Assembly (NCBI GenBank): GCA_030428385.1
Contig: JAUIDY010000032.1
Coordinates: forward strand, 1-50,037
Reading direction: 5' to 3'
DNA length: 50,037 bases
DNA from: Rhodothermia bacterium
GTDB taxonomy: Bacteria; Bacteroidota; Rhodothermia; Rhodothermales; JAAAOL01
Positions 15,815 to 23,577 of this stretch are shown here, piece after piece. The notes beneath the pieces are model-generated. The model did no database searches. It saw nothing but the letters and a program-made list of their open reading frames with translations, and was not told where the DNA came from. The position numbers were made by a program, and so were the translations under genes. Position 1 is the first letter of the stretch. Every line of letters begins with the position of its first letter.

Positions 15815-18106
15815 TTGCCCGGCATGCGTGCCGCGTGGTTCGCCAAATTGCCTGCCAAATCTCGACTGGCCGCGCTGGATACGCGGGCCGGACGCGTTGC
15901 ATTGTGGGTAATGGGGGTGACCGGGTTTGTACTCGGATTTGTTTACCACGGCATTGTTTTTCTCAGCGGCAAACCCGCCGCCATGGGGCTTGCCATCAGC
16001 TACAACGTCGTGGTGTTGTTGGCAGCGGCCGCGCTGTGGCTGCTGTTGTCGTTGCTGTTTCAGCGGCGTCCCGCCTCCACCGCCCGGCTGTTCTGGTCGA
16101 CGCTTTTTGTGGGAGGGGTGGTGTTGGGCAGCAGTTGGCTGGTTTCGCTTATCGGGCGTCCGAGTGCGGCCATGGCCTATACCGCTGGGTTCGATTATGA
16201 GACCGGCGTGCCGCTGACGCTGGCCACGGTGCTGAAGATGAACCTGCTGAGCCTGCTCGAGGTGACGTTTGCGTTTGTCTTGTTGCTGCGCTTCCGCGAC
16301 CTGGTGCTCTTTAAGCGCTCGCGGAGTAGCCAGCGCAACTGGTACCTGATGCTGGGCCTGATGGTTTTTGCCAGCCTGCTCGTCTTTATGCGCCCCCCGC
16401 AATCCGAAACACACTGGCTGGATGGGGTGGTGATGGTGCCCGCGGTCCTCTTTATGGTCATCAACTCGTTCCGGCTTTCGTGGATCGTTTTTCTTTCGTT
16501 CCGGGAAAAAATTGCATCGATTGGGCTCTCGTTGCTCTTGCTGGTCCTGCTGGCTTTTAAGCTGGCAAGCATGGATGACGCTATGGCGATGGGAGTGATC
16601 GACATCACCTACTTTGCCTACTACAGCCAGCCGCTGATCGTTTTTTCCACCCTGGCGCTCATCTTTGGCATTCTGTACTGCACCACGGCGTTTCTGTCGC
16701 TGCTCTTTCACCTGCCCACCACGGGTGATTTTCAGCGCAAGGAAGATGAACTGGCCGCGATGCACTCGCTAACCAACCTCGTCAGCCAGGTCTTCGATCT
16801 TGAGCGTTTGTTGGCCACCATCGCTGCGTCGCCGGTGGAGGCAGGTGCGGCGAGTGCCACGTGGTTGGCGGTGCGTGATCTGGGAAGTGGATCCCTGCGT
16901 CCACAGATCGTGGCCACCCACAACATGGATCCCGTGCGCGTCATGGAATTGGTGGATGTACAAGCGTTTTATGATGAACTGAGTCCATCGCGCGAGCCCT
17001 TGCTGCTAGAACAAGCCCCGGCCGATCATCGCATCAGTGCGGGGCCCGGCGAGGGCATCGGGAGCTTGTTGGTGATTCCGCTGGTGGCCCGTGATGAGAT
17101 GCTGGGCGCGTTGTTCGTCACCAGCGAGGTGGCCCACGGCTTCGAGAAGGACGATGTGCGGGCGATGGGGGTATTTGCGGCGCAAGCCGCCCTGGCGCTC
17201 GACAACGCACGGCTCTTTGAGGAGCAGGTGGAGAAGGAACGGCTGGAACGCGAACTGAGCATCGCCCGCGAGGTGCAGCAGAAACTGTTGCCCCAATGCC
17301 TCCCTGTGATCGAAGGGGCGTCGATCTGTGCCTCCAGCGTGCCCGCGCAAGAAGTGGGCGGCGACTATTATGACTACGTTCACCTCGGGCCGCACCGGTT
17401 GGCGTTTATTGTCGCCGATGTCTCGGGGAAAGGGGCCTCGGCGGCGTTTTATATGGCCGAGTTGCAAGGGGTGTTTAAAGCCATTGCGCCCATTGCGCCT
17501 GACCCGAAGGACTTTCTCAGCCACGCCAACCGTGCCCTCTCCGAGACGCTCGAAAAGAACGTTTTTATCTCTGTGCTCTACGGCGTGCTCGATACGCAGA
17601 AAGAAGAACTGGTCCTCGCTCGGGCGGGGCACTGCCCGGCGGCCACCATCGACTTAAACGGCTCGGCCCGGTTCCTGCGCACGCGGGGCCTGGGGCTGGG
17701 GCTCGACAATGGCCCGTTATTCCGCAAGACGCTGGCCGTAGAGCGGCACCGCCTGCAACCGGGCGATGTGTTTGTCCTTTATACCGACGGGGTGGTCGAA
17801 AGCCGCTCGCCACAAGGCGAAGAATATGGCTATGAGCGGTTGCTCGACGCCCTTCGTGAGAACCGGCACGAAGACGCCGACACGCTCCACGATGCGGTGC
17901 TGGCCCACCTGAACGGGTTTATTGTAGAAGGCGACTACGGTGATGACATGACCCTGCTGGTACTGAAATGGCATGGCATCACCCTGCCCTCCGCGAAAGA
18001 ACAGCGGGCCAATGGGGCCGAAAACCCGGTCGCTGGATCCAGAGGCGACGGATCCGAAAGTCAAGAAAATTCTGTCCCTGCCGTTCCAGCCTCGACTAAG
18101 GCATGA
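15815..18106 (+). CDS. Membrane GAF-domain PP2C/SpoIIE serine phosphatase (RsbU-like)
   Basis: A 763-residue protein. Residues about 28-297 form some eight membrane helices; about 310-470 is a GAF sensor domain; a short coiled linker (EEQVEKERLERELSIAREVQ) leads to a SpoIIE-type PP2C phosphatase at about 490-710. Metal-binding acids are visible in VGGDYYDY (about 514), ADVSGKG, LYTDGVVE (about 655) and GDDMTLL (about 709). Such phosphatases dephosphorylate a STAS-domain antagonist in partner switching. The next two genes encode a STAS protein and a HATPase kinase, so the substrate is probably the neighbour. The membrane part suggests sensing of an envelope or small-molecule signal. The last ~55 residues are low complexity. 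Confidence 0.93.
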   Translation: MPGMRAAWFAKLPAKSRLAALDTRAGRVALWVMGVTGFVLGFVYHGIVFLSGKPAAMGLAISYNVVVLLAAAALWLLLSLLFQRRPASTARLFWSTLFVGGVVLGSSWLVSLIGRPSAAMAYTAGFDYETGVPLTLATVLKMNLLSLLEVTFAFVLLLRFRDLVLFKRSRSSQRNWYLMLGLMVFASLLVFMRPPQSETHWLDGVVMVPAVLFMVINSFRLSWIVFLSFREKIASIGLSLLLLVLLAFKLASMDDAMAMGVIDITYFAYYSQPLIVFSTLALIFGILYCTTAFLSLLFHLPTTGDFQRKEDELAAMHSLTNLVSQVFDLERLLATIAASPVEAGAASATWLAVRDLGSGSLRPQIVATHNMDPVRVMELVDVQAFYDELSPSREPLLLEQAPADHRISAGPGEGIGSLLVIPLVARDEMLGALFVTSEVAHGFEKDDVRAMGVFAAQAALALDNARLFEEQVEKERLERELSIAREVQQKLLPQCLPVIEGASICASSVPAQEVGGDYYDYVHLGPHRLAFIVADVSGKGASAAFYMAELQGVFKAIAPIAPDPKDFLSHANRALSETLEKNVFISVLYGVLDTQKEELVLARAGHCPAATIDLNGSARFLRTRGLGLGLDNGPLFRKTLAVERHRLQPGDVFVLYTDGVVESRSPQGEEYGYERLLDALRENRHEDADTLHDAVLAHLNGFIVEGDYGDDMTLLVLKWHGITLPSAKEQRANGAENPVAGSRGDGSESQENSVPAVPASTKA

Positions 18107-18167
18107 AACTTCCGTAACATAGGGCCGTCCACCCACCCGCATCCCCAATGATACCAATTTATATTCC

Positions 18168-18524
18168 ATGAGCAGTTTCTCTGTGGGATTTCGCTCCTCT
18201 GGCGTTGTGCAGATTCTAGAGCTAAACGGCGAACTCGACGCCCATACGGCCTCCGAGCTTGAGGCCGCGATACAAAAATGTCAAAGCGACAAACAGTACC
18301 ACATCATCGTCAACGGCGAGAACCTGCAATACATTTCCAGCGCAGGGCTCGGTGTGTTTATGGCCTATATCGAAGAAGTGCGTGACGAAGGCGGCGACAT
18401 CAAAATCGCGGCGCTGCGGCCGAAGGTATACAACGTGTTCGACCTGCTCGGCTTCCCGATGCTGTTCGACATCATGGAAACCGAGGCCGAAGCACTACAG
18501 AAGTTTACCGACGGTGCGTCCTGA
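18168..18524 (+). CDS. STAS-domain anti-sigma factor antagonist (RsbV/SpoIIAA-like)
   Basis: A 118-residue protein made of a single STAS domain: 'VVQILELNGELDAHTASELEAA' split over the first strand and helix, and the phosphorylation loop YISSAGLGVF with Ser57/Ser58. In known systems the Ser is phosphorylated by the cognate kinase and dephosphorylated by the PP2C phosphatase; the unphosphorylated form binds the kinase and frees the kinase's other partner. It lies 61 bp after the phosphatase gene and 33 bp before the kinase gene, an operon in the order phosphatase-antagonist-kinase. Cytoplasmic. Family identification is firm; partners are inferred from position. Confidence 0.93.
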   Translation: MSSFSVGFRSSGVVQILELNGELDAHTASELEAAIQKCQSDKQYHIIVNGENLQYISSAGLGVFMAYIEEVRDEGGDIKIAALRPKVYNVFDLLGFPMLFDIMETEAEALQKFTDGAS

Positions 18525-18557
18525 CATCCGATAACCCCTGAACCAGCGCTCCACCTC

Positions 18558-19013
18558 GTGGCTCGTTCCATCCATACCTTCTCCATTCCAAGCTCGACGC
18601 GCTTCCTCGAAGACGTGCGGCGGTTTGTGGAGATGCATGCGGTGGAAGCCGACCTGCCCGAGGCCATCGTAGAACAGTTTAAGCTGGCCGTAGACGAAGC
18701 GTGCACCAACGTCATCGAACACGCCTACGGAGGCGATGAAACCAAGAAGGTGGACCTGGCTGTCATCATCGACAACGACCGTTTCACGGTGCGCATCCGC
18801 GACAAAGGGACACCGTTTAACCGCACCACCTACACAGAGCCGAACCTGCTGGAGTTTGCCAAACGGGGCAAAAGCGGCGGCTTCGGCGTACATATCATGC
18901 GCCGCCTGATGGACCGGGTGGAATACCGCACGCGGGGGCAGACCAACGAGGTGCTGCTCACCAAATACCGCATCGTGTCCAACGCCAACGGCGACGACAC
19001 CGGCATGGCCTGA
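18558..19013 (+). CDS. HATPase anti-sigma serine kinase (RsbW/SpoIIAB-like)
   Basis: A 151-residue GHKL-type ATPase. The N box is DEACTNVIEHAYGG (about 46-59), the G1-like motif is IRDKGTPF (about 86-93), and the G2-like motif is GKSGGFGVHIMRRLMD (about 109-124). Such kinases phosphorylate the STAS antagonist and bind either that antagonist or a sigma factor/other target. The start is GTG at 18558. No sigma factor gene adjoins it, so the output may be an unlinked sigma factor (the ECF factor at 34687-35307 already has its own zinc anti-sigma) or another target. It ends 9 bp from a convergent minus-strand gene. Confidence 0.92.
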   Translation: MARSIHTFSIPSSTRFLEDVRRFVEMHAVEADLPEAIVEQFKLAVDEACTNVIEHAYGGDETKKVDLAVIIDNDRFTVRIRDKGTPFNRTTYTEPNLLEFAKRGKSGGFGVHIMRRLMDRVEYRTRGQTNEVLLTKYRIVSNANGDDTGMA

Positions 19014-19022
19014 AGAGCGCGT

Positions 19023-20111
19023 TTATCGCGCCAGCACCGCCACTTGGCGCTGCACTAATTCTCCCGCCTGCACTTCGTAGAAATACATCCCGGCGGGTTT
19101 CCCGGTGAGATCAAACGTTTCCGCATGCGTCCCCGCCGCCTGAACACCCAGCGAACGTAAGGCGATTTTCCTCCCCGTCAGGTCGTACACCGTCAGTGTT
19201 ACCACTGCCGCTTCGGTCAGGGCATAGGAAACCGTGGTGGTTTCGGCGAACGGATTCGGGTAGTTCGACAACTTGGCGTGAGGAGGCAGCGGAGCTTGGG
19301 GAACTGTAGACGTTGTGCCTGCGCCGAGGAACGCGAGGTCTTCGGCGGCCTGGGCGAGGGGTTTGGTGCGGCTGCACAGGGACGTAACAAATGGGACACT
19401 CGAATTGCCTCCAAACTCATAACTTTCGAAGGCATAAATGAGATAGGTTTCGCCCACCGCAAACGGATAGCCACAGGCAGCAGAGGTAGGCACCGCAACG
19501 CCGGGAGTGTTTACCGTGCCCTCGAAGAAGGGATATCTGTTCTTCCAGAGCGTGTGTGCATCAAAGGCGACCGAAATGACATAGTCGGTGGTGTCGGGGT
19601 CATCGTAAAGGGCGGTTACAGTTCCCGAGAACACCGCCGAAGCCGAGCGAAGCGCAATTTCTGGGGTGGGCATGGCATTGCAGGGGCACGTCGCGCTATC
19701 CAGAAAGGCAAGGTGTTGCCCGGCCCTTTCCATTTCGATGGCCCAACAGCCGCCGCTCCCATGATAATCGCCCGTGGCGTCATAATAGGTGTAGACCAAA
19801 TACGTCGTCCCCACGTCATAATACGCGGCGCAGGACGTTTGGCGATTCTCTATTTCTATGGTCGCGCTTTCCACCCCTTTCCAGGCTTGGATCACCGAAA
19901 ACGAAACCGGTTGCGAGTACCCACGGCCTAAATCATGATCAACCAGCCGTCGCTCCCCGATTTCCAAGACCGTCCCCAGAAAAACCCGCGAGGCGTCGTT
20001 GCTCCATTGGGCCGGAGTTCGTGCTGGGGCGCAGACACACGCCGAAGCGGTTTGCATCCCGCCAAGCAGGGGCAAGAGCACAAGGGAAAGCACAGAAAGA
20101 ATTCGTCTCAT
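19023..20111 (-). CDS. Secreted protein with two TIMP/NTR-like domains and a type IX sorting domain
   Basis: A 362-residue protein. MRRILSVLSLVLLPLL…ASA is a signal peptide, and the mature protein begins CVCAP. Two related domains follow (about 25-140 and 143-265): each has a Cys-x-Cys opening, 'ASRVFLGTVLE'/'ASAVFSGTVTA', a 'W+G/WKN' strand and a Cys-rich closing part ('YDVGTTYLVYTY' and 'FAVGETYLIYAF'). This is the pattern of the tissue-inhibitor-of-metalloprotease/netrin-like domain found in bacterial secreted proteins, where the function is unproven. The last ~80 residues (NYPNPFAETT… VYDLTGRKI) are a type IX secretion sorting domain, directing surface attachment or release. The start at 20111 (ATG) is clear; an in-frame TTG upstream is rejected. 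Confidence 0.87.
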   Translation of the reverse strand: MRRILSVLSLVLLPLLGGMQTASACVCAPARTPAQWSNDASRVFLGTVLEIGERRLVDHDLGRGYSQPVSFSVIQAWKGVESATIEIENRQTSCAAYYDVGTTYLVYTYYDATGDYHGSGGCWAIEMERAGQHLAFLDSATCPCNAMPTPEIALRSASAVFSGTVTALYDDPDTTDYVISVAFDAHTLWKNRYPFFEGTVNTPGVAVPTSAACGYPFAVGETYLIYAFESYEFGGNSSVPFVTSLCSRTKPLAQAAEDLAFLGAGTTSTVPQAPLPPHAKLSNYPNPFAETTTVSYALTEAAVVTLTVYDLTGRKIALRSLGVQAAGTHAETFDLTGKPAGMYFYEVQAGELVQRQVAVLAR

Positions 20112-20240
20112 GGTACCGAAGGAGAAAGAGGACAAATCCTTAATAGTACACCAACTGTTTTGTCAGTAATGAAGTGGACACCTATGTGGAGGAGAAACGC
20201 GCGCGACGCCCTGCTATGATTTTGCGGTAGCAGCCGTCAG

Positions 20241-21284
20241 CTACCTGGCTAAAAGCATGGCTTTTGTTTCATGGAAACGCCCTGCGGAGAGTTGATAGAA
20301 GTAGAGGCCAGGCGAGAGCAAGGCTGCGTCAAAAGGAACCTCATACCTTCCTGGTCCCTTGGTGGCATCAACGAGAACGGCCAGACGCCGCCCTTGTATG
20401 TCGTAGACAGTCAAGCGCACGGCGGCAGGCTGATCTAGCACATAACGGATTTGCGTCGAGCGATGGAAAGGGTTGGGTAGGTTGGAAAGCAGAAAACTTG
20501 GTTTCGGCAAGAGCGGGGGCGTGTCCTCAATGTTCACGCTAAGGGCGGTACTTGTCGAATCGACCCAGCGAAAAGCACGGGTTAGGCGCTGATCCCGGTC
20601 AGGAAAATGAATGGTATGGCCGACGCCTTGCAAGATTAAGGAATTTACCTGGGCTCCTGCATCAATTAAGGCATCTCGAATGGGGAAAAAGCCGGTGGCG
20701 AGATTTACGGTATTGTCCCGGTCGCCATGCATGATGAAGAACGGTTTGTCTTGGGCACGACTGAGCAAGTTCATGCCCACCTGTGCGGTGCCGTTTATAA
20801 AAGCACCGATGGTAATAAACCCAGCGAACTTCTCGGCATTATCCAGGCCATAGGTGTAGGTGGCCCGGGCACCCCAAGAAAAGCCAAGCGCAAACAGTTT
20901 GTGGGGATTAATGGAATACCAGGACGCTACGGAGTCGATTAAGGCGGTGGTAAATGCTTTGTCAATCGCGTCGTCTACGCGTCCGTCATTGCCCCCATCT
21001 GGACAAAAAAGCAACAGGTTATTTTCTTCAGCAAAAGGCGTTAGGATGTCACACCACGTCGTGGAATTACCCCAGTTTGCATGCAGTGGATGAAAGGCGA
21101 CCATCGCTTTTGTCGCAACGTCGGGCGAATACCCGGAGGGCACATACACCGCAAACTTTTTCGCCGGGTCATTGAGGAAGGCAAAGGAGGAGTCTAGGCG
21201 TACTTGCGCAGAGGCAAGGCTGGCCGATAAGCCGAAGCCAAGGGTGACAAGAAGTAGGAGGAACCCTAACCGATGATGCAACAT
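20241..21284 (-). CDS. Secreted alpha/beta-hydrolase (esterase/depolymerase-like) with type IX sorting domain
   Basis: A 347-residue protein. A signal peptide ends near ASAQ (26-27). The hydrolase domain (about 35-240) has the nucleophile elbow G-F-S136-W-G, an Asp in HGDRDNTV (D190) and His223 in GVGHTIHF, completing a Ser-Asp-His triad. The layout resembles LpqC/feruloyl-esterase/PHB-depolymerase-like carboxyl-ester hydrolases; the substrate cannot be told. The C-terminal ~80 residues (NLPNPFHRSTQIRYVLD… VYDIQGRRL) are a type IX secretion sorting domain, so the enzyme acts at the cell surface or outside. It is followed 129 bp later by the TIMP-like gene on the same strand. The gap 20112-20240 shows no further gene. 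Confidence 0.9.
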   Translation of the reverse strand: MLHHRLGFLLLLVTLGFGLSASLASAQVRLDSSFAFLNDPAKKFAVYVPSGYSPDVATKAMVAFHPLHANWGNSTTWCDILTPFAEENNLLLFCPDGGNDGRVDDAIDKAFTTALIDSVASWYSINPHKLFALGFSWGARATYTYGLDNAEKFAGFITIGAFINGTAQVGMNLLSRAQDKPFFIMHGDRDNTVNLATGFFPIRDALIDAGAQVNSLILQGVGHTIHFPDRDQRLTRAFRWVDSTSTALSVNIEDTPPLLPKPSFLLSNLPNPFHRSTQIRYVLDQPAAVRLTVYDIQGRRLAVLVDATKGPGRYEVPFDAALLSPGLYFYQLSAGRFHETKAMLLAR

Positions 21285-21586
21285 GGCTGCTACGCAATAG
21301 TGAGAACCGATAGCTTCACAGGGTCAAGGTGACGTAAGGAAGTACGTTCATCAAGGCAAAAGAGCAGCCCTTGGTTATGCATTGTGTAGATAAAGAAAGA
21401 AGCAACCGAGGGTTATGCGCTTGTTCGTGTAGGTGCCTACCTGCCGGGAGTTTGGGTGGTCACTTCCAGGCTTTCTCCGGCATCTCATGTTCCTCTTTAT
21501 ACCGTTTTGATGTACTGTTAAGGTGAACGTCGCGTTGGAACATTGTGGCGTTGGTGCTTGCTTTTCTCATACTCCCCCCTGATCTC
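21285..21586. other. Divergent intergenic region
   Basis: 302 bp between the hydrolase gene (leftward) and the HhH-protein operon (rightward). It should hold both promoters. I see no clear promoter pair, hairpin or small gene. Frames extending the downstream gene upstream to 21545 are judged not coding. Confidence 0.5.
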
Positions 21587-22690
21587 ATGGACCGTTCCTT
21601 GCCGGTCACTGCCATCGAAGGCATTGGCCCGAAGACCGCCGCCTTGCTCGAAGCCGTAGGCATTGTCGGTGCGTTCGACCTGCTGCGGGTGTCACCACAG
21701 CGGCTGCACCCCGAAGTGAAAACGCTGGCCTCGCTCGCCGAGGTGACCGCGTGGCGCAATGCCGCCGCGCTGCTGCAAGTAGACGGCGTCACGTCGCAAG
21801 CCGCCGAAGCGCTCGTTCATGCGGGCGTAGAAACCATTGAGCGGCTGGCCCGACAGGGCTTGGAAAACCTCCTCAGCCTGTTCACCGAAGCCGAAGCACA
21901 GGGCCTGATTCCTGACGTGCCGACGCCTGCCCAGTGCGCCGACATGATGCGCGATGCTGCCATTTTGCAACACACGGGTTATCTGCGCGGTACGGTGCAG
22001 ACTGCCGATGGCACGCCCGTCGCCGACGCGCAGGTTCGCCTCGGCACCCGACGCACTACGACGGATGCACACGGGCGCTTCGACCTGCTGCGTCTGCCGC
22101 TGGGCACAGCCACGCCGCTGCTCATCACACATCCCGACCATGCATCGAAAACCATCGAACGGCCCACGCTGCTGCGCGACATGGGTGCGGTGAGCGTGCG
22201 GGTGATCCGGCTGGAAGCCGCCACCGCCGAGCCAATGCCTGCTCGCATTCAGTCGGAAATAGACGGCGACACGCTGCCGCCCACCGCCGGGCTGCCCGTA
22301 CGAACCGTGTGGCTGGAGCCCACGGCGTTGCGCGAACACGATCTGCTGATGGTGCGCGCTCATGAACCTGGTGACGACACCGTGCGGCTGGTTTCCAAAC
22401 TCAAAGCCTATGTGAACGGCGAAATTCAGGTGTACGCGCACAAGATGCCCGCCGCACACCTGCCCGATCCGATTAAAAACGGCGACCACTTTCGGGTGCG
22501 TGACAGAGCGCTGGTGCCCATCGCCATCAACAGCGATGGCGTGCGGCGATACAAAATTAAGCGCCGCCTCGCCCGCTCGTTTGACGGCGCACCGAAGCCG
22601 ACAACCGTCGATGCCTTCATCGATCAACTGAAGGCGCAGGCGGCGTTTCTGAAGCAGCACGAGTTCTTCAACGCTACGCGGAGGGTCTGA
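21587..22690 (+). CDS. Helix-hairpin-helix (DUF4332-like) protein with transthyretin-like domain
   Basis: A 367-residue protein without signal peptide. Residues 1-125 carry helix-hairpin-helix turns (AIEGIGPKTAALLEAVGI; VDGVTSQAAEALVHAGV) like DUF4332/HhH proteins that contact DNA or serve as scaffolds. Residues about 130-205 (LRGTVQTADGTPVADAQV… TTDAHGRFDLLRLPLG) match the carboxypeptidase-regulatory/transthyretin-like fold, usually found outside the cytoplasm. The remaining ~160 residues are unrecognised. The start at 21587 (MDRSLPVTAIEGIG) begins right at the HhH region. The stop is 1 bp from the start of the first Cys-rich gene, so they are one operon. The domain mixture is unusual, and the function is unknown. 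Confidence 0.8.
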   Translation: MDRSLPVTAIEGIGPKTAALLEAVGIVGAFDLLRVSPQRLHPEVKTLASLAEVTAWRNAAALLQVDGVTSQAAEALVHAGVETIERLARQGLENLLSLFTEAEAQGLIPDVPTPAQCADMMRDAAILQHTGYLRGTVQTADGTPVADAQVRLGTRRTTTDAHGRFDLLRLPLGTATPLLITHPDHASKTIERPTLLRDMGAVSVRVIRLEAATAEPMPARIQSEIDGDTLPPTAGLPVRTVWLEPTALREHDLLMVRAHEPGDDTVRLVSKLKAYVNGEIQVYAHKMPAAHLPDPIKNGDHFRVRDRALVPIAINSDGVRRYKIKRRLARSFDGAPKPTTVDAFIDQLKAQAAFLKQHEFFNATRRV

Positions 22691-22691
22691 C

Positions 22692-23120
22692 ATGTACGAA
22701 TGGATCAGCCACGGCGGCTGCGAGCGCTGCGACGCCATGGAAGGGTTCTACGATGAAGAACCCGTCCGCCCGCATCCCAACTGCCAGTGCGACATCATCC
22801 ACCACGAAACCCACACGACCCACTCCATCGTTGCCGAGGTGACCGACATCGATTGGACCGAGCGCCGCCACTGGTTTGAAGACGGCATGTGGCACTGGGA
22901 AGGGTTCTTTTCTATCACGGGTGACATCCGGGTGCAGTGCGCCAATGGCACCCAGTTGATGGACACGTTTAGCAAAGACTACGACTGGAAGCTGGATGCC
23001 GACCAGCCCGACTTCTACCCCTCTGGCGTAGACGGGTGGAGCGACCCGTGGTATCGGGATGCCGTGGCCGTTGGAGAGCGGCTGGCAGAGCAGTGCAACG
23101 AGGCGTTTCGGTGCTGCTGA
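22692..23120 (+). CDS. Cys-rich small protein with CxxC…HPNCxC motif, copy 1
   Basis: A 142-residue acidic protein with no signal peptide. Its N-terminal module has C10-x-x-C13, DAMEGFYDEEPVRPHPNCQC with H28, C31 and C33, and an Asp/Ile-rich end. The same C..C…HxNCxC layout occurs at the C-terminus of phage head-morphogenesis (Mu F/SPP1 gp7-like) proteins, where it looks like a metal-binding knuckle; here it stands alone at the N-terminus. The rest is Trp/Asp-rich with a central strand pair (SITGDIRVQCANG) and ends in CC. It is a close paralogue of the next gene, and starts 1 bp after the HhH gene. No function is recognised; a zinc-binding role is inferred. Confidence 0.8.
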   Translation: MYEWISHGGCERCDAMEGFYDEEPVRPHPNCQCDIIHHETHTTHSIVAEVTDIDWTERRHWFEDGMWHWEGFFSITGDIRVQCANGTQLMDTFSKDYDWKLDADQPDFYPSGVDGWSDPWYRDAVAVGERLAEQCNEAFRCC

Positions 23121-23154
23121 CACAACGAAAAACCGAGCTTAGCGATAGATAACC

Positions 23155-23577
23155 ATGTACGAGTGGATCAGTAGCGGCGGCTGCGAGCGTTGCGATGCAA
23201 TGGAAGGGTTTTATGACGAAGAGCCTGTGCGTCCGCATCCCAACTGCCAGTGTGAAATCATCAATCACGGTGCCGAAACGGCCAACATCATCGAGGCCGA
23301 GTGGGATGATTATGAATGGGACCTGGAACGCCGCTGGTTTGACAACGGCGTGCGCAACCGCAAGGGCGTGCTGACGATCCGGGGCACCGTGCGGGTGACG
23401 TGCCAGAACGGCGCGGAGTTTTTTGACGATGTGGATATTCAACTCGACCTCCACATCGAGGGCGATCAGGTTGATTTTCCCCTTGAGGAGATTGACTGGG
23501 ACGACCAGTGGATGGAGAAAGCGATGGAAGTAGGGGAGCAACTCGCCACCCAATGCCCCGATTTTCTGTGTTGCTAG
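23155..23577 (+). CDS. Cys-rich small protein with CxxC…HPNCxC motif, copy 2
   Basis: A 140-residue paralogue of the preceding gene, 34 bp downstream. The first 36 residues are almost identical (MYEWIS-x-GGCERCDAMEG… RPHPNCQC), and the DNA over that stretch is about 80% identical by eye. The remainder has diverged but keeps strand 'TIRGTVRVTCQNGAEF', the acidic loops and the terminal CC. Conservation of the N-terminal module in sequence, with drift elsewhere, suggests the Cys/His module is the functional core. It completes the three-gene operon beginning at 21587. Function unknown. Confidence 0.8.
   Translation: MYEWISSGGCERCDAMEGFYDEEPVRPHPNCQCEIINHGAETANIIEAEWDDYEWDLERRWFDNGVRNRKGVLTIRGTVRVTCQNGAEFFDDVDIQLDLHIEGDQVDFPLEEIDWDDQWMEKAMEVGEQLATQCPDFLCC

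Follow-up and report, generated by a model that had tools for sequence, protein, structure and literature searches.

Among described proteins, those closest to part of the locus analysed here include the phage head-morphogenesis proteins of the MuF/SPP1 gp7 family (PF04233). The functions of the MuF domain and of Mu gpF were given as unknown by Jamet et al. (PMC5576092). MuF proteins are often extended at the C-terminus, with toxin domains in 13% of them (PMC5576092), and small immunity genes adjoin MuF toxin genes (PMC11699363).

We analysed a stretch of 50,037 nucleotides from a Rhodothermia bacterium, referred to below as the window. It contains a gene for a protein with a helix-hairpin-helix (HhH) region and a transthyretin-like domain, followed by genes for two small paralogous proteins, S1 and S2, that begin with a Cys/His knuckle. 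Consistent with the preliminary description of this DNA, no system with such a gene set was found in the libraries and literature searched. The features of the locus are collected in Table 1.

Table 1. Features of the HhH-S1-S2 locus, in window coordinates.
Feature	Position	Strand	Details or basis
HhH/transthyretin-like gene	21587..22690	+	367 aa from ATG; GTG start at 21545 possible
DUF4332 / HHH_5 region of HhH protein (aa 11-107)	21617..21907	+	Pfam PF14229, PF14520
CarboxypepD_reg, transthyretin-like domain (aa 133-190)	21983..22156	+	Pfam PF13620
Orphan basic C-terminal region of HhH protein (aa 216-367)	22232..22687	+	pI 9.8
GGAGG, possible ribosome-binding site of S1	22680..22684	+	within the 3' end of the HhH gene; sequence reading
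S1	22692..23120	+	142 aa, pI 4.45, eight Cys
S1 knuckle module (aa 1-36)	22692..22799	+	paralogue alignment, codon comparison, knuckle profiles
S1 beta-beta-beta-alpha domain (aa 43-137), predicted	22818..23102	+	AlphaFold2 model, block pLDDT mostly 59-89
S2, paralogue of S1	23155..23577	+	140 aa, pI 4.05, eight Cys
S2 knuckle module (aa 1-36)	23155..23262	+	paralogue alignment, codon comparison, knuckle profiles

Three genes and the domains of the HhH protein

The HhH gene, S1 and S2 all lie on the + strand and are separated by gaps of 1 bp and then 34 bp; when the coordinates were re-checked, this tight spacing was as originally claimed. The possible ribosome-binding site of S1 stands 7 nt before its start. 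Scored for codon usage against the other window genes, S1 reaches 0.79, S2 0.76 and the HhH gene 0.69, compared with 0.52-0.79 for the other window genes and 0.47-0.60 for the overlapping long antisense frames. Because their codon usage lies above that of the antisense frames, the three are real + strand genes, and that usage is host-like. A promoter search at the locus returned no match. Those window genes around the operon that have family matches are of housekeeping type, and the downstream gene with an Ala-racemase fold is present in 30 of the 30 relatives searched. A recent phage insertion is made unlikely by the host-like codon usage and the absence of flanking repeats.

Two other groups of window genes lie upstream. 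At 15815-19013 (+), genes with Pfam matches to a SpoIIE phosphatase with GAF, a STAS protein and an anti-sigma-type ATPase stand in a row, which by these matches is a partner-switching (RsbU/V/W-like) module. On the - strand, 19023-20135 and 20241-21284 encode two proteins whose C-termini are alike and of the type IX secretion sorting kind; the Pfam family Por_Secre_tail matches the second of them weakly.

The HhH protein has Pfam matches above the respective cut-offs to DUF4332 (PF14229; E 1.7e-14, 54.4 bits with a cut-off of 23.2), HHH_5 (PF14520; E 1.4e-8) and CarboxypepD_reg (PF13620; E 4.1e-8), which bears out the proposed fusion of an HhH domain to a transthyretin-like domain. The C-terminal region of about 150 residues has no Pfam match. 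Searches with this region, as suggested in the preliminary description, found no credible relative in 345 genomes of the phylum and 114 of the order. One match to it, in L041, was discarded for an internal stop and overlap with other genes. Pentatricopeptide sequences in the PDB that matched the HhH protein were also dropped, since these matches spanned fewer than 50 residues and contained no stretch that passed on its own. The structure model of this protein has a pLDDT of 36 and is unusable.

Paralogy, selection and predicted fold of S1 and S2

S1 and S2 are 53% identical, and 34 of their first 36 residues are the same. The nearly identical N-termini, the pattern C10-x2-C13...H28-x2-C31-x-C33 within them and the terminal CC at the protein ends are all present as first described. 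All eight Cys residues are common to both proteins, and four of the eight lie outside the knuckle.

Over the first 39 codons, the two genes differ at 2 first, 2 second and 16 third positions, which amounts to 13 synonymous and 4 replacement codons. Replacement codons make up 4 of these 39 codons and 62 of the other 101 aligned codons (Fisher p=1.9e-8). By comparison, third positions differ at 16 of 39 codons in the module and at 52 of 101 in the remainder (Fisher p=0.35), a similarity that rules out gene conversion as the origin of the like N-termini. Since replacements are scarce in the module while third-position divergence is similar in the two parts, the N-terminal module is kept by selection on the protein and not by recent copying. 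The earlier suggestion of selection on the knuckle is thus supported.

For residues 43-137 of S1, the AlphaFold2 model, whose input alignment consisted of two sequences only, predicts three long strands and a helix, at a local confidence that is fair to good; in the knuckle its pLDDT is under 50. Fold searches with this domain gave no match at E 0.001. Weak matches at Z 4-5.3 include LptE, Cj1090c, Rad52, capping protein and SecB.

Probable kinship and distribution of the knuckle

The likeness of the knuckle to that of phage head-morphogenesis proteins, already remarked upon in the preliminary description, is seen in PHROGs, tblastn and profile searches. Against PHROGs, S1 and S2 each score best with a family of head-morphogenesis proteins (E 0.03-0.06). 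All tblastn matches of the module in 50,697 phage records are weak (E 0.04-10); MuF-like or head-morphogenesis proteins recur among them, from unrelated Weissella, Mycobacterium, Microbacterium and Bacillus phages and a methanogen virus. Of the 163 matched records, 99 are Staphylococcus phages, and there the annotation is for another protein, a helicase loader. A rough binomial estimate of MuF enrichment, which took an assumed background and groups counted by hand, is given no weight. A ten-member profile of HPxCxC knuckles places S2 (E 3e-7) and S1 (E 1.5e-6) first among 6,930 sequences, eight of the ten members having been found through S1. When a mixed profile that includes S1 and S2 was run through 394 genomes of the phylum, the strong matches outside the window were MuF proteins or MuF fragments. 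S1 and S2 were not recovered by a profile of the phylum's MuF proteins as retrieved with Pfam; the 28 proteins in it mostly have H for the CxxC and no HP. The module query matched plasmids four times, with none of the four annotated as MuF, and neither S1, S2 nor the isolated module matches PF04233 in Pfam. The likeness between S1/S2 and MuF proteins reaches the W before the metal ligands and the strand after them. To judge from these comparisons, the S1/S2 knuckle is likely kin to those phage MuF knuckles that form the HPxCxC subclass. We call this likely and not more because support is partly circular, with eight of ten profile members obtained by way of S1, and because the Pfam-only profile fails.

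In L130, where the knuckle matches at 1501-1590, a MuF-like frame contains what looks by eye like an intein with HNH/Vsr-like sequence. The last residues of this intein-like stretch seem to be VVVHN, with the first Cys of the knuckle following at once.

Searches for S1/S2 homologues in 60 relatives, 114 genomes of the order and 394 of the phylum produced only chance-level matches beyond the window, as did those in phages, plasmids and viral contigs; a PDB sequence search found none. A scan of 84,980 species, with one genome each, for the two peptide patterns CDAMEGF and MYEWIS[HS]G, which could miss diverged relatives, returned one Alistipes contig bearing a full MuF protein and no S1/S2 homologue. 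The cassette was found at none of eight relatives' loci that were read, two of the eight being short contigs. With no homologue in the genomes searched, the operon seems restricted to a single sampled species, although these searches could have overlooked a diverged relative elsewhere. The HhH gene is therefore tied to S1 and S2 by operon layout in one genome. At the start of the Alistipes contig (L039, 1-454), beside the MuF gene, the translation has a recurring peptide (e.g. YLIDFLHQTTT), which suggests a repeat array, perhaps CRISPR.

Some of these results could be expected of a convergent metal or redox motif. The knuckle would then be a zinc-ribbon or thiol site of a general kind without MuF descent, and S1 and S2 would act as stand-alone metal-handling or thiol proteins. 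Such an origin would fit the failure of the profile of Pfam-retrieved MuF proteins, the many helicase-loader records from Staphylococcus phages and the four further conserved Cys residues beyond the knuckle. We consider it somewhat unlikely, given that MuF or head-morphogenesis proteins of several unrelated phages recur among the matches, that the best PHROGs match is a family of head-morphogenesis proteins and that the likeness extends past the metal ligands on both sides. A phage-derived conflict cassette, in which S1 and S2 are immunity-like or are detached C-termini of MuF polymorphic toxins, each comprising the MuF domain's end and a tip domain, and the HhH protein is their partner or target, would fit the C-terminal extensions and adjoining immunity genes of MuF proteins described above, and the order of a knuckle followed by an extra domain that both S1 and S2 repeat. 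Against this, a search of the whole source genome found no MuF (PF04233) protein, there is no match to a toxin or defence family and PADLOC gives nothing meaningful, the S1 and S2 tips are homologous and not exchanged, codon usage is host-like, and the neighbours are of housekeeping type; we judge this unlikely.

DNA binding is common among HhH domains, and many of the weak fold matches are to Rad52 chains and phage ERF proteins. Both would suit a Rad52/ERF-like beta-beta-beta-alpha domain in S1 and S2 that binds single-stranded nucleic acid, DNA or RNA, in cooperation with the HhH protein. However, no fold match reaches E 0.001, the best Rad52 score of Z 4.8, a level that the search tool calls common, is tied with LptE, capping protein and other unrelated folds, and S1 and S2 are strongly acidic, all of which makes such a role highly improbable.

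Proposed role and comparison with known systems

The explanation that we favour, tentatively, is a lineage-restricted chromosomal operon that encodes a complex of metal-knuckle proteins in the cytoplasm, with a knuckle possibly of phage origin. S1 and S2 would each join a knuckle of the MuF/gp7 C-terminal type, which is constant and probably binds zinc, its Cys and His residues predicted to hold the metal, to a faster-evolving beta-beta-beta-alpha domain. The knuckle may be the fixed part, used for docking or structure, and different contacts of S1 and S2 may come from the variable domains. Their likely partner is the HhH protein, a putative modular adaptor composed of helix-hairpin-helix, transthyretin-like and basic C-terminal parts, whose gene is probably translationally coupled to S1 (1-bp gap, GGAGG). 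With a pI of 9.8 in its C-terminal region vs 4.0-4.5 for S1 and S2, this protein could bind the acidic paralogues, and we infer that a complex forms, presumably in the cytoplasm. S1 and S2 could also be functionally unrelated to the HhH gene. In a fuller version, a bacterium recruited a portal-associated phage knuckle as its constant docking module; after duplication and fusion to a new beta-beta-beta-alpha domain, the module came under an HhH/transthyretin-like adaptor, giving a three-protein cellular system not described before. As a whole, this version is doubtful. If the kinship is true, the locus shows that a cell has reused a phage head-building module, and it offers the MuF knuckle for study in a small, separate form. 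If it is false, what is left is a well-supported orphan operon whose knuckle is sharply conserved.

Separate knuckle proteins also occur in uncultivated phages. The exact-spacing pattern C-x2-C-x14-H-x2-C-x-C matched 13 viral contigs, which contain MuF-like proteins, chance matches and four small separate knuckle proteins (L146, L148, L149 and L153). These four resemble S1 and S2 in being separate small proteins with identical knuckle spacing, and differ in their length of 55-102 aa, in the C-terminal position of the knuckle and in lying within virion gene clusters. In L148 the gene order is terminase, portal, knuckle protein and major head protein, the usual muf position. The L149 and L153 knuckle genes lie directly upstream of related large structural-type genes, with an HNH-like gene between in L153. 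Because the four contigs encode such proteins, the knuckle module can stand alone in phages, at the C-terminal end; in S1 and S2 it comes first and another domain follows. The earlier claim that the knuckle here opens a free-standing protein is therefore correct for S1 and S2, while separate knuckle proteins as such are not unique to this locus.

The HhH part of gene 1 is like DUF4332 proteins (PF14229), with relatives throughout the order and also in Persicobacter, but these match that part only, without the transthyretin-like and C-terminal regions. The MuF polymorphic toxins (PMC5576092), including Bxa (PMC11699363), share with S1 and S2 a knuckle followed by a C-terminal extension, and small genes alongside; unlike them, S1 and S2 have no MuF domain, toxin domain or prophage, and their tips are paralogous. 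Residues 1-36 of S1 and S2 align with the C-terminal knuckle (W-strand, C, HPxCxC, strand) of the HPxCxC subclass of MuF/SPP1 gp7 proteins. In contrast to those proteins, S1 and S2 lack the remaining MuF domain, carry the knuckle first and are encoded outside phage or prophage, with no adjoining portal gene and among housekeeping-type neighbours.
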